Below, in pieces: positions 110 to 24,607 of a stretch of DNA of 46,263 bases. The notes under the pieces were generated by a model. That model was given only the letters and a program-made list of their open reading frames with translations, did no database searches and was not told where the DNA came from. Location of the stretch: positions 1 through 46,263 of the forward strand of contig CAITJF010000029.1 in assembly GCA_903892645.1 (NCBI GenBank), in the 5' to 3' direction. Position 1 is the stretch's first letter, and every line of letters begins with the position of its first letter. Source of the DNA: an uncultured Nitrosomonadales bacterium. Its GTDB lineage: Bacteria > Pseudomonadota > Gammaproteobacteria > Burkholderiales > Gallionellaceae. Both the position numbers and the translations under genes were made by a program.

Positions 110-499
110 TTAGTGTGCTTCGCTGTCCACCACGGATTGATACGCTGCAGCATCCATCAGCACAGCCACATCAGCCGCACTGTCTGGCTTCATTTTGAAC
201 ATCCATGCGGCATACGGGTCATTGTTGATTTTTTCCGGAGCGCTGTCCAGATCACTGTTTACTTCCACTACTACACCGCTCACCGGCGCATACACATCGG
301 CTGCGGCCTTCACCGATTCCACCACGGCGCATTCTTCACCCGCCTTCAGTTTGCGGCCAATTGCCGGGCTTTCCACGAACACCATGTCGCCCAGTAGCTC
401 CTGTGCGTGTTGTGTGATGCCCACACTGACCGTGCCATCGGTCTCGGTTTTAATCCACTCGTGGGAGGCGGTGTATTTCAGGTTTGCCGGATTGCTCAT
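110..499 (-). CDS. gcvH: glycine cleavage system H protein
   Basis: GcvH is the lipoyl carrier of the glycine cleavage system. It shuttles the aminomethyl group from glycine decarboxylase (P protein) to the T protein in the cytoplasm. The 129-residue length is normal. The lipoyl-lysine motif [10 protein letters not shown] is present with the acceptor at Lys64, and the family start (KYTASHEW) follows the initiator closely. An AGGAG ribosome binding site lies about seven bases before the ATG. The gene follows gcvT on the same strand, with a 67-bp repeat filling most of the gap, so it probably belongs to the riboswitch-controlled transcript. gcvP is not in the window and may lie beyond base 1. 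Confidence 0.97.
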
Positions 500-518: not shown

Positions 519-585
519 AGTCGTTAGTTGAAGTTGTCGCTGCGTGGTTGTTAACTAGCCGCTAACGACTAGAGATTAACGACTG
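519..585. repeat. 67-bp palindromic repeat, copy B, overlapping the gcvT 3' end
   Basis: This is the second copy of the element at 38-104, in the same orientation and of equal length. It carries AGTCGTTAG at 519-527, CTAACGACT at 562-570 and TTAACGACT at 576-584. It overlaps gcvT by 17 bases, so the last GcvT codons (VVNL) and the TAG stop are read from repeat sequence. Two copies bracketing one gene suggest insertion or duplication around gcvH. Confidence 0.72.
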
Positions 586-1657
586 CCTTTCCATTTCTGG
601 CAAACGGATATTTCACCACCTTGGCTGCCAGCATTTTATCTCGAATTGCCACTTGTACCGTATCGCCGATTTGCACTTCTTTCGGCACGCGTGCCAGCGC
701 AATGGATTTTTCCAGCGTGGGAGAGAAACTGCCGCTGGTGATTTCGCCTTCGCCGTGTAAGGTGTGCACCTGCTGGTGGCCGCGCAATACGCCGCGATCC
801 AGCAACACCAATCCGGCCAGTTTGCGTGTCGGCGGGTTCGCCAGCAGCGCCGCCTTGCCGATGAAATCGCGTTCACTTTTCAAATCTACTGTCCACGCCA
901 GACCTGATTCCAGCGGGTTTACCGTTTCGTCCATGTCCTGGCCGTACAGATTCATGCCCGCTTCCAGACGCAAGGTGTCGCGCGCACCGAGGCCGATGGG
1001 TTTTACGCCAGCCTTGTTCAGTGCGTACCAGAATTCTTCCACTTTCTCTTTGGGCAGCATCACCTCAAAACCGTCTTCGCCGGTGTAACCGGTGCGCGCC
1101 ACGAAATATTCGCCGCAATCGGCAGCCTGAAAATTCTGCAAGCCCTCGGTGGCCGCCTTGGTTTGCGGCAGCACCTGCCACACCTTGGCGCGCGCGTTCG
1201 GCCCTTGCACCGCAACCATCGCCAAGTCGTCGCGCGAGGTGATGGAAAGATTCGGGGCATGCATTGCAGCTTGTTGCTTCATCCACGCAATGTCCTTGTC
1301 CGCCGTGCCTGCGTTCACCACGATGCGAAACCACTGCTCGCTCATGAAATAGATAATGAGATCGTCGATCACCCCGCCATCCGGGCGCAGCATGGCGGAA
1401 TACAGCGCCTTGCCGGGCAGCGCAATCTTGTCGGCGTTGTTCGCCAACAGATAGCGCAGGAAGGCGCGCATGCCATCGCCCTTCGCATCCACCACGCGCA
1501 TGTGGCACACGTCGAACATGCCGCAGTCGTTGCGCACCTGATGGTGCTCGTCGATCTGCGAACCGTAATTCACCGGCATGTCCCAGCCACCGAAATCAAC
1601 CATCTTTGCGCCCATGGCGCGATGGGCTGCGTTGAGCGGGGTTTGCTTAAGTGCCAT
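569..1657 (-). CDS. gcvT: glycine cleavage system T protein (aminomethyltransferase)
   Basis: GcvT transfers the methylene group from the lipoyl-bound aminomethyl intermediate on GcvH to tetrahydrofolate, releasing ammonia. The 362-residue length is typical. The N-terminus ([20 protein letters not shown], then GWDMPVNYG) and the [20 protein letters not shown] segment of the folate-binding fold are clearly recognisable. The start follows the riboswitch and terminator by about 20 bases. The final four residues and the stop codon lie in a palindromic repeat, so the extreme C-terminus may have been replaced by insertion. It heads the gcvT-gcvH unit. Confidence 0.97.
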
Positions 1658-1675: not shown

Positions 1676-1709
1676 AAAAAGGGCGCAGCACGAATTCGTG
1701 CTGCGCCCC
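1676..1709 (-). terminator. intrinsic terminator between glycine riboswitch and gcvT
   Basis: Bases 1681-1708 are a perfect 28-nt palindrome (arms GGGCGCAGCACGAA and its complement). On the minus strand it is followed directly by TTTTT (1680-1676), a textbook rho-independent terminator. It lies just after the P1 helix of riboswitch aptamer II and before the gcvT start. This supports glycine control by transcription termination, with read-through when glycine is bound. That polarity is known for gcv switches and is inferred here. Confidence 0.88.
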
Positions 1710-2014
1710 ATCTGTCCTTGATACCTGAGAGATTACAACTTGCGTTGCGTGCCCCTTCGGTGGCTGGTTTTGGATGCTTCTATAAATTCAAAGCTCTAAG
1801 TGAGACAAGGCGCAAAAGAAATTTTAGCGCGCCGCATATGTTTTATATGTCAGCAATAAAATTTCTTGAGCAACGCCGTATCACGACGAGATTTGGATTT
1901 ATAGAGGTATCCAATCCGACGCTCTCCAGATTTGCCTGCCCCAATGGTTCTTGTGCCTGAGCGATTGCGGGTGTTGCGCCTTCGGCGGTGCTTGGTAGCA
2001 CGCTCTCCCATTGG
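1710..2014 (-). ncRNA. tandem glycine riboswitch, second aptamer interrupted
   Basis: Read on the minus strand, aptamer I (about 2014-1941) shows GGGAGAGCG, GCCGAAGGCGCAA, CTCAGGCA and a closing helix CCAATGG/CCATTGG. Aptamer II begins with CTGGAGAGCG near 1930 and resumes with ACCGAAGGGGCA, CTCTCAGGTA and AAGGACAGA, closing as ATCTG (1931-1927) with CAGAT (1714-1710). These are the conserved blocks of the gcvT glycine riboswitch. Between the GAGAG block and the CCGAAGG block of aptamer II lies a 141-bp MITE-like element (1772-1912), at the tip of the peripheral P3-type hairpin. The core blocks are intact, so function may survive. Confidence 0.9.
1772..1912 (-). mobile_element. MITE-like element, copy 1, inside the glycine riboswitch
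   Basis: This 141-bp AT-rich element has imperfect terminal inverted repeats: GGATGCTTCTATAAATTCAA on the plus strand and GGATACCTCTATAAATCCAA read from the other end. It also holds an internal perfect inverted pair, AAGAAATTTTA/TAAAATTTCTT. It has no coding capacity. Its reverse complement matches 19565-19704 over nearly the full length, roughly four fifths identical by eye with small indels. The folded RNA would be one long hairpin. No clear target duplication was seen. Confidence 0.83.
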
Positions 2015-2070
2015 TCTGAACGGCAGGTGGAACTATACCGAAGAAGGAAACAAGCGGCAAGCCACTCGAT

Positions 2071-19564: not shown

Positions 19565-19704
19565 AATGTGCGCTATAAATCCAAATTTCGTTGCAATACT
19601 GCGTTGCTCAATAAATTTTTCGCTTACATATATAACGATATGCCGCGCTTCAAAATTTCTTTCGCGCCTTATCTCGCTTAGAACTTTGAATTTATGGAGG
19701 TGCC
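19565..19704 (+). mobile_element. MITE-like element, copy 2, between argH and algZ
   Basis: This 140-bp non-coding element matches the reverse complement of the riboswitch-borne copy (1772-1912). One end carries CTATAAATCCAAAT and the other TTTGAATTTATGGAGGTGCC, the terminal inverted repeats of the family. The outermost left bases are less well conserved. It fills almost all of the divergent argH/algZ intergenic region, so the promoters of both genes must lie in or beside it. Confidence 0.82.
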
Positions 19705-23453: not shown

Positions 23454-24607
23454 ACAAGCCATCACCACCTACAGAGCAAAACACTCCTGATGGAACTACT
23501 GGTAAAACTACTAGCCATTCCGCTAAGCCCCAAAATGCGGGGCAAGCGGCTGGTTACGCCGCACCTGAGGCCACAGTGGAATCCGCCGTTCCGCGCCAGA
23601 ATCCGGTGGCGAGTGTTATTTTGCGCATGAGCATCATGCAGATGACGCTGGCCGTGGTGCTGATAGTGTTCCTGTGGCAATGGTTCGATGCGCACCGCCA
23701 GATCGGCAACATGCAACAGGAGCTGGCGCGCCGCCTGACCGAGATGGAAGGCAACAACAAGGCCAGCCAGATGCTGGTTGCGCAAGGGCAGGAGGCCGTG
23801 CGCGAGCTGTCCGCCAAGGTAAGCCTGCTGGAAGCGCGTTATGCCGAGGCGCAGAACCAGCGCGCCGCACTGGAGACCCTATATCAGGAATTGTCCCGCA
23901 GCCGTGACGAAACAGCGCTGGCCGAAGTGGAGCAGATGCTGCTGATTGCCGGGCAGCAGTTACAACTCTCTGCCAATGTGAAAGCCGCGCTGATTGCCAT
24001 GCAGCAGGCCGACGAATATCTCAAGCGCATGGATCGCGTTTCACTAAACGGCTTGCGCAAGGCCATCAGCCGCGACATGGACAAGCTGCGCGTGTTGCCC
24101 AATGTGGATGTGCCGGGCATCAATCTGCGCCTCGATAATCTCATCGCTGCGGTGGATACCCTGCCGCTGGCACAGGATATCCGCATTCCACAGGAAACGA
24201 GTGCGGCCGCACCTGCTGTACCTGCCGGTTCGGGCTGGCAAAAATTTCTGCATGAAATATGGGAAGACGCCAAACACTTGGTGCGCATCGAGAACATGCA
24301 GAAGCAAGAGCTGCCCCTGCTCTCGCCCACGCAGACATTTTTCCTGCGCGAGAACCTGAAGTTGCGCTTGCTGTCTGCACGTCTTGCACTGCTGGCGCGC
24401 GACGAATCAAGCTTCAGGCATGACCTGCAGTCGGCGCATGAGTGGGTAACACGCTACTTCGACGCCAAATCCACCCAAGGCGCACTAGCTGCCGCCACTT
24501 TGCAGAGGCTGCGTGAGTCCAACATCAACATCGAGTTGCCCGACATCAGCGCCAGCCTGGAAACGGTGCGCAATTACCGCGTTTCACGCGAGAAACCGGC
24601 ACGATGA
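23450..24607 (+). CDS. hemX: HemX-like uroporphyrinogen-III C-methyltransferase family membrane protein
   Basis: This 385-residue protein has a cytoplasmic polar N-terminus, one membrane helix at about residues 55-77 (ILRMSIMQMTLAVVLIVFLW) and a coiled-coil stretch at about 78-135, followed by a helical periplasmic domain. That is the HemX architecture. Despite the family name, no SAM-methylase motif is seen. Its role in haem synthesis is unclear; it is thought to organise the pathway with HemY. The ATG at 23450 overlaps the hemD stop and follows an AGGAG site. Confidence 0.88.
   Translation: MNKPSPPTEQNTPDGTTGKTTSHSAKPQNAGQAAGYAAPEATVESAVPRQNPVASVILRMSIMQMTLAVVLIVFLWQWFDAHRQIGNMQQELARRLTEMEGNNKASQMLVAQGQEAVRELSAKVSLLEARYAEAQNQRAALETLYQELSRSRDETALAEVEQMLLIAGQQLQLSANVKAALIAMQQADEYLKRMDRVSLNGLRKAISRDMDKLRVLPNVDVPGINLRLDNLIAAVDTLPLAQDIRIPQETSAAAPAVPAGSGWQKFLHEIWEDAKHLVRIENMQKQELPLLSPTQTFFLRENLKLRLLSARLALLARDESSFRHDLQSAHEWVTRYFDAKSTQGALAAATLQRLRESNINIELPDISASLETVRNYRVSREKPAR

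Follow-up and report, generated by a model that had tools for sequence, protein, structure and literature searches.

A MITE-like element in the P2 loop of aptamer II of a gcvT tandem glycine riboswitch, and recurrent repeat insertions in the same aptamer among the Gallionellaceae

The leader of gcvT in a member of the Gallionellaceae, a family of mostly iron-oxidising Betaproteobacteria, contains a tandem glycine riboswitch whose second aptamer is interrupted by a 141-bp MITE-like element. Our explanation of the locus, which we regard as quite probably correct as a whole, is that the element inserted into the apical loop of P2 in aptamer II and that its transcript would fold back into a long, self-contained hairpin prolonging P2, leaving P1, the glycine pocket (P3a and the junctions), the leader-linker helix and the terminator undisturbed. 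In a switch that still works in this manner, glycine bound to the two docked aptamers would stabilise P1 of aptamer II and release gcvT from its terminator, which would make it an ON switch. The tips of P2 and P3b in aptamer II would moreover tolerate palindromic repeats throughout the family, and unrelated repeats would on this account recur there.

The window analyzed, a stretch of 46,263 nucleotides, is contig C29 of a draft genome of 2.68 Mb in 268 contigs. An earlier reading made from the letters alone (the sequence-only reading) had described two glycine aptamers and a terminator before gcvT on the minus strand, and all of these were found with the Rfam model RF00504, the open reading frames and an inverted repeat (Table 1). 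The interval it had given, 1710-2014, does contain the insertion site, but the whole leader is slightly larger, at about 2045-1676. The closest relatives of gcvT are those of Gallionella, Sideroxydans and other Gallionellaceae (94-75% protein identity), and they have the same leader. The TATAGT motif of the putative promoter is also present in leaders of several relatives, and the leader strand CCTGCC has its probable partner in GGCAGG at 1940-1935, a complementarity read from the sequence; leader and linker were inspected at ten loci. The expression platform is an intrinsic terminator between aptamer II and the directly downstream gcvT, and its 5' arm starts with a GGGG tract. A sequence scan of the leader found no promoter or terminator supplied by the insert.

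Table 1. Features of the gcvT leader and operon in the window (model R1 and the sequence profile are described in the text).
Feature	Position	Strand	Evidence
Sigma-70-like promoter TTGCCG-17-TATAGT, directly 5' of aptamer I	2032..2060	-	Consensus scan, 9/12 matches
Leader strand CCTGCC of the probable leader-linker helix (P0/kink-turn)	2022..2027	-	Complementarity read from the sequence
Glycine aptamer I	1935..2020	-	Rfam RF00504, 63.9 bits, E 4.4e-11, cut-off 32
CCC in the aptamer I P3 loop, likely pseudoknot partner of GGGG 1709-1706	1969..1971	-	CCC in 79/79 readable leaders
Aptamer II, 5' part (P1 5' strand 1931-1927, GGAGAG, P2 5' strand GTCGG 1920-1916)	1913..1937	-	Model R1 20.9 bits, E 1.3e-5; profile 14.2 bits
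Inserted MITE-like element, 141 bp	1772..1912	-	About 12 genome copies, terminal inverted repeats
Aptamer II, 3' part (P2 3' strand CCAGC 1767-1763, P3a, P3b, P1 3' strand CAGAT 1714-1710)	1706..1771	-	Model R1 60.2 bits, E 1.4e-16; profile 61.7 bits
Intrinsic terminator, 13-bp stem and T tail	1680..1709	-	Terminator scan; perfect 14-bp inverted repeat
gcvT (aminomethyltransferase), regulated gene	569..1657	-	362-aa ORF, relatives at 94-75% identity
gcvH, same operon, 3' of gcvT	110..499	-	129-aa ORF, named from its sequence

With the insert in place, RF00504 matched aptamer II at 1795-1702 with 28.4 bits, under the cut-off of 32, and this match takes bases of the element as its 5' strand. The score falls below the cut-off because the true 5' strand lies past the insert, and the sub-threshold aptamer is read as an interrupted member of RF00504 with a shortfall as expected from an insert in P2. 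A covariance model (R1; 99.3% of cells paired) was built from 44 insert-free relatives, whose alignment displays covariation in P2 and P3b. It matched both sides of 1772-1912, with 60.2 bits at 1793-1706 and 20.9 bits at 1937-1910, and the inverted-repeat element thus splits aptamer II as had been proposed. After deletion of 1772-1912 by script, aptamer II was matched unbroken, over profile positions 1-88 of 88 and with 81.9 bits, by a profile made from this alignment (a sequence profile rather than a covariance model), compared with 61.7 and 14.2 bits for the two pieces into which the profile is split by the insert. The sequence-only reading had named two outcomes that would speak against it, an aptamer II that is not recovered once the insert is removed and relatives that share the 141 bases as part of the aptamer; aptamer II is recovered in the profile match, and the 141 bases are not shared by the relatives. 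Its proposed entry point, the tip of a peripheral hairpin, could be refined: it is the apical loop of P2, a stem of GTCGG...CCAGC in which four pairs form out of five and a C-A mismatch is left. The P2 arm measures 26 nt without the insert, and nearly all insert-free relatives have arms of 22-25 nt, among which the P2 types GTCGG/CCGAC and GTTGGATTAACCAAC are both present.

The element ends in imperfect terminal inverted repeats (TIRs), GGATGCTTCTATAAATTC at one end and GGATACCTCTATAAATCC at the other, and its inverted-repeat arms at 1770-1806 and 1878-1914 (37 nt) are 78% complementary. About 12 diverged copies of the 141 bases are found in the genome, the best at 84% identity, and a copy 84% identical to the window's element lies within the window itself at about 19571-19702. 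The TIR pattern GCCTCTAAAAATYC had 19, 17 and 50 matches in three genomes of the genus, whereas the reversed control pattern had 0, 1 and 0 (19 against 0 for the genome of the window). Matches often occur as facing pairs; of 41 candidate pairs, 13 have a full length of 141 bp, more than any other length. Six copies lie between exact 4-bp direct repeats, where 0.9 would be expected, a signal at the level of the family from which we conclude that it probably transposes with a 4-bp target duplication; none is visible at the window copy. TIR pairs in the three draft genomes lie about 90-320 bp apart, all of MITE size, and no pair of transposase size, as a partner transposon would have, was found among them. 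Being short, multi-copy and without coding capacity, with TIRs, a modal length of 141 bp and probable family-level duplications, the element merits the label MITE-like that it had been given.

The four genomes of the genus display four states of this locus: the window element in P2, a P2 element into which another element has inserted (G001), a different element in P3b (G002, locus L105), and an empty site with the loop GCTGTTTTACGCAGC (G003, locus L060). The empty site that the sequence-only reading had suggested looking for in close relatives was thus found within the genus. A misjoin of repeats would be another way to arrive at an interrupted aptamer, given a draft of 268 contigs and the fact that repeats often break assemblies. 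However, both flanks belong to one unique locus in all relatives, and a misjoin would be needed twice at one point. In addition, the same loop carries an insert in Ferriphaselus sp. R-1 (L076), whose record bears no MAG label. An assembly artefact is accordingly extremely improbable.

To place the insertion in the family, 79 leaders with both aptamers readable were compared (the window and 78 others). Two loci were left out and serve as natural controls: L112, with a decayed tandem glycine riboswitch, and L129, where the riboswitch 5' of gcvT has been lost in full. Inserts of at least 40 nt were found in aptamer II of 25/79 leaders, at the tip of P2 in 18 and of P3b in nine (L063 and L064 have both), and the P3b hairpin is about 30 nt longer in two more (L098 and L102). 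By sequence the inserts fall into family a (the window, P2), b (three, P3b), c (ten, P2), d (five, P2) and e (six, P3b), plus two singletons in P2, of which the one in L086 resembles a remnant of d with a nested element. At least six insert types are therefore present, most of them shown to be multi-copy: when five host genomes were searched for c, e, d and b jointly, each had 10-42 matches, and these families are therefore dispersed repeats. A few species have an insert downstream of the terminator, with a greater distance to the ATG.

Several related observations were made along the way. In L043 (about 250-440), and also in L064 and L086, a AACCAGCGACTTGG..CTAGT element lies nested in element d, which in turn occupies P2 of aptamer II, and a copy related to this nested element is present in the window near 23555. 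Family c palindromic spacers of the TTAGTCGTTAGTT type occur in the window at 29-105, 3' of gcvH (matched by search), and at about 515-580, between gcvT and gcvH (read from the sequence); the latter copy is present again in many relatives.

Parsimony on the gcvT tree gives 17 changes in P2 and nine in P3b, each a gain or a loss. The notion that every insert is an independent gain was dropped, since the family e inserts of five species have flanks that are alike; some of these are probably shared gains, later lost in places. Because of the e flanks and of an insert shared by descent between L120 and L124, gains are fewer than parsimony changes, and the distinct combinations of family, arm and flank set a lower bound of about eight. 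Beyond the Gallionellaceae, family b also occupies P3b of aptamer II at L025 in G028, from another family of the order, where the aptamer match 352939-353181 encloses the b core 353005-353087. A scan of 56 further genomes of the class, with strict filters that may lose long inserts, found no insert of MITE size and no aptamer span above 148 nt. The element had been called unusual for a riboswitch, which holds against other families but not within the Gallionellaceae, where roughly a third of the species have one.

The earlier reading had left three outcomes for the switch: that it stays intact, that tandem cooperativity is abolished or that gcvT becomes constitutive. A disabled aptamer II, with gcvT under aptamer I alone or unregulated in the window strain, would fit the drop of its RF00504 score to 28.4 bits, the delay that a 141-nt hairpin imposes on completion of the aptamer, and the occurrence of riboswitch loss in the family at L129 and L112. 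Where loss occurs, however, it resembles decay of both aptamers, unlike an insert, and insert-bearing aptamers as a group have not decayed: their aptamer II core differs from the consensus on average at 0.39 of 57 positions, compared with 1.04 without inserts and 14 of 57 in the decayed L112. In the window aptamer II the P1 and P3 helices and the core residues are conserved and 1/57 core positions differs, a value that would be uninformative for the window insertion if that insertion were very recent. Together with the full-length match after removal, it agrees with the proposal that the core was kept while one arm was enlarged. Pairing is likewise retained in the insert-bearing loci. In 19 enlarged P2 arms, those with the 18 inserts and a further one of 42 nt, 4.53 of the five pairs at the base of P2 are retained; shuffling the 3' strands between these arms gives 4.02 (p 0.0002, by a statistic that ignores kinship). 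L120 and L124, which inherited one insert, are 56/57 identical in the core and 107/117 in the insert arm. Because the cores are undecayed, P2 pairing is kept and an insert has been inherited, the outcome in which the switch is left intact is favoured of the three, and we consider a disabled aptamer unlikely.

Folding of the RNA, which had been suggested as a check, agrees with this outcome. The insert is predicted to form a single long hairpin on top of P2, and the cost of imposing the native fold is 5.2 kcal/mol with the insert, 5.3 once the arm is capped and 4.0 in the relative with the empty site. Without constraint, the minimum fold lies about 5 kcal/mol below the native one, and a gap of about 4 is present in the empty relative as well. 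A glycine response with an enlarged arm has a precedent in the N. gonorrhoeae gcvT riboswitch, whose aptamer 2 has a 73-nt P3 (PMC13104608). The known dimer contacts are those of P3 with P1 of the two aptamers (PMC7357161), and the P2 and P3b tips used by the Gallionellaceae inserts are not among them. Most likely, then, the switch remains functional and would bind glycine, P2 being lengthened by a hairpin that folds on itself.

The frequency of inserts in one family, the repeated turnover in both arms and the result of the class-wide scan, with its strict filters, could also be taken to mean that the inserts are useful, a long aptamer II hairpin changing co-transcriptional timing or stabilising the arm and being kept by selection. 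However, the inserts are unrelated in sequence, one family occurs in both orientations, and many close relatives have no insert at all. Since tolerance combined with abundant repeats accounts for the same facts, we think a benefit quite unlikely.

Tolerance alone is not a full explanation, because each repeat family keeps to one arm: c, d and the window family are confined to P2 and the other two, e and b, to P3b (p 2e-6, taking the 26 changes as independent). Each family might therefore actively target one hairpin tip, a reading compatible with the explanation given above. Cores of family b elsewhere in genomes do sit on their own site-specific stems (score 9.17 compared with 4.18 for mismatched partners, n=18). 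On the other hand, the sequences that flank a, c, d and e elsewhere do not form inverted repeats. Several of the b stems are similar to a small set of recurrent terminal repeats and may be part of the element, and the similar e flanks in five riboswitches suggest common ancestry with losses and thus fewer events. Targeting as a general rule was rejected, flank complementarity being negative for a, c, d and e and positive only for b; for the nested element f it is only suggestive (p 0.065). Active targeting by each family is for these reasons rather unlikely, and tolerance is the safer reading of the insert pattern. As a separate observation, the copies of family b in L165-L190 have a conserved core of about 115 nt with long inverted repeats on either side that differ between sites, and this element may seek hairpin tips or exchange its ends. 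A further idea, that the aptamer II hairpins are recurrent landing sites for arm-specific repeat families whose long arms tune the switch without breaking it, also seems improbable. Were it true, mobile elements would have repeatedly reshaped a riboswitch with its function kept.

Tolerance, in contrast, would not extend to aptamer I, in which none of the 79 readable leaders has an insert of at least 40 nt or of MITE size. Its P3 arm is 24 nt in 79/79, and its P2 arm, which varies by up to about 40 nt, reaches at most 62 nt. That maximum, the largest aptamer I change seen, is found in L130 and arose through a near-tandem duplication (CCAGTATCTTTGCAAAGAC / CCAGTATTCTTGCAAAGAC); an apparent P2 of 194 in L132 is explained by a first block that has diverged, P2 itself being normal. 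Every readable leader also keeps a G tract just 3' of P1 of aptamer II; in the window this tract begins the 5' arm of the terminator. A pseudoknot joining a poly-C in the P3b loop to a poly-G after aptamer 2 is reported for 66% of riboswitches of this kind (Torgerson et al. 2020, cited in PMC13104608). If it forms here, the P3 tip of aptamer I is occupied and the P3b tip of aptamer II is free. Such pairing of the P3 loop of aptamer I with the G tract that begins the terminator is the likely reason for the asymmetry. It would cover P3 of aptamer I; for P2 of aptamer I no like reason is at hand.

The inserts amount to a natural experiment performed many times over, in which 40-150 nt were added to single arms of a dimeric riboswitch, and its outcome maps the tips that can be extended (P2 and P3b of aptamer II) and one that is fixed (the P3 arm of aptamer I). 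They also provide a concrete example of mobile repeats turned into part of a regulatory RNA. For annotation they carry a warning, as insert-bearing aptamers sink below Rfam cut-offs and then resemble single-aptamer switches.

Precedents exist for parts of this picture. Short repeats are found in arms of cyanobacterial RNase P RNA. Our literature search, outside which most subscription journals lay, found no report of an insertion sequence or MITE in a riboswitch aptamer, nor of recurrent mobile repeats in the arms of one aptamer; long variable riboswitch insertions as such have been known since 2007. The window element resembles prokaryotic MITEs (reviewed in PMC10969869) in being short, multi-copy and noncoding, with TIRs and, at family level, a probable 4-bp target site duplication, and departs from the norm in that no parent transposase was found and the window copy has no visible duplication. 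The pneumococcal BOX element, like the window element, is a small repeat in a riboswitch leader with regulation apparently kept (PMC3049150), but it lies between two trp T-box riboswitches and not within an aptamer. The host RNA itself is like other RF00504 tandem glycine riboswitches, with two aptamers, invariant core blocks, a leader-linker helix, a terminator, gcvT on the 3' side and the elements of the poly-C/poly-G pseudoknot; unlike the norm, its aptamer II P2 arm has grown from about 24 to 167 nt through a mobile repeat. The N. gonorrhoeae gcvT switch is similar in its enlarged aptamer 2 arm and differs in that the extension is in P3 rather than P2 and the switch is translational (PMC13104608). 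A parallel in form is offered by the variable insertions that Barrick and Breaker described in riboswitches (2007, PMC2258182): these are stem-loops, long and nonconserved, which occupy specific sites and leave the core undisturbed. The inserts described here differ in being dispersed mobile repeats, present in about one third of a family and with empty sites in sister species.
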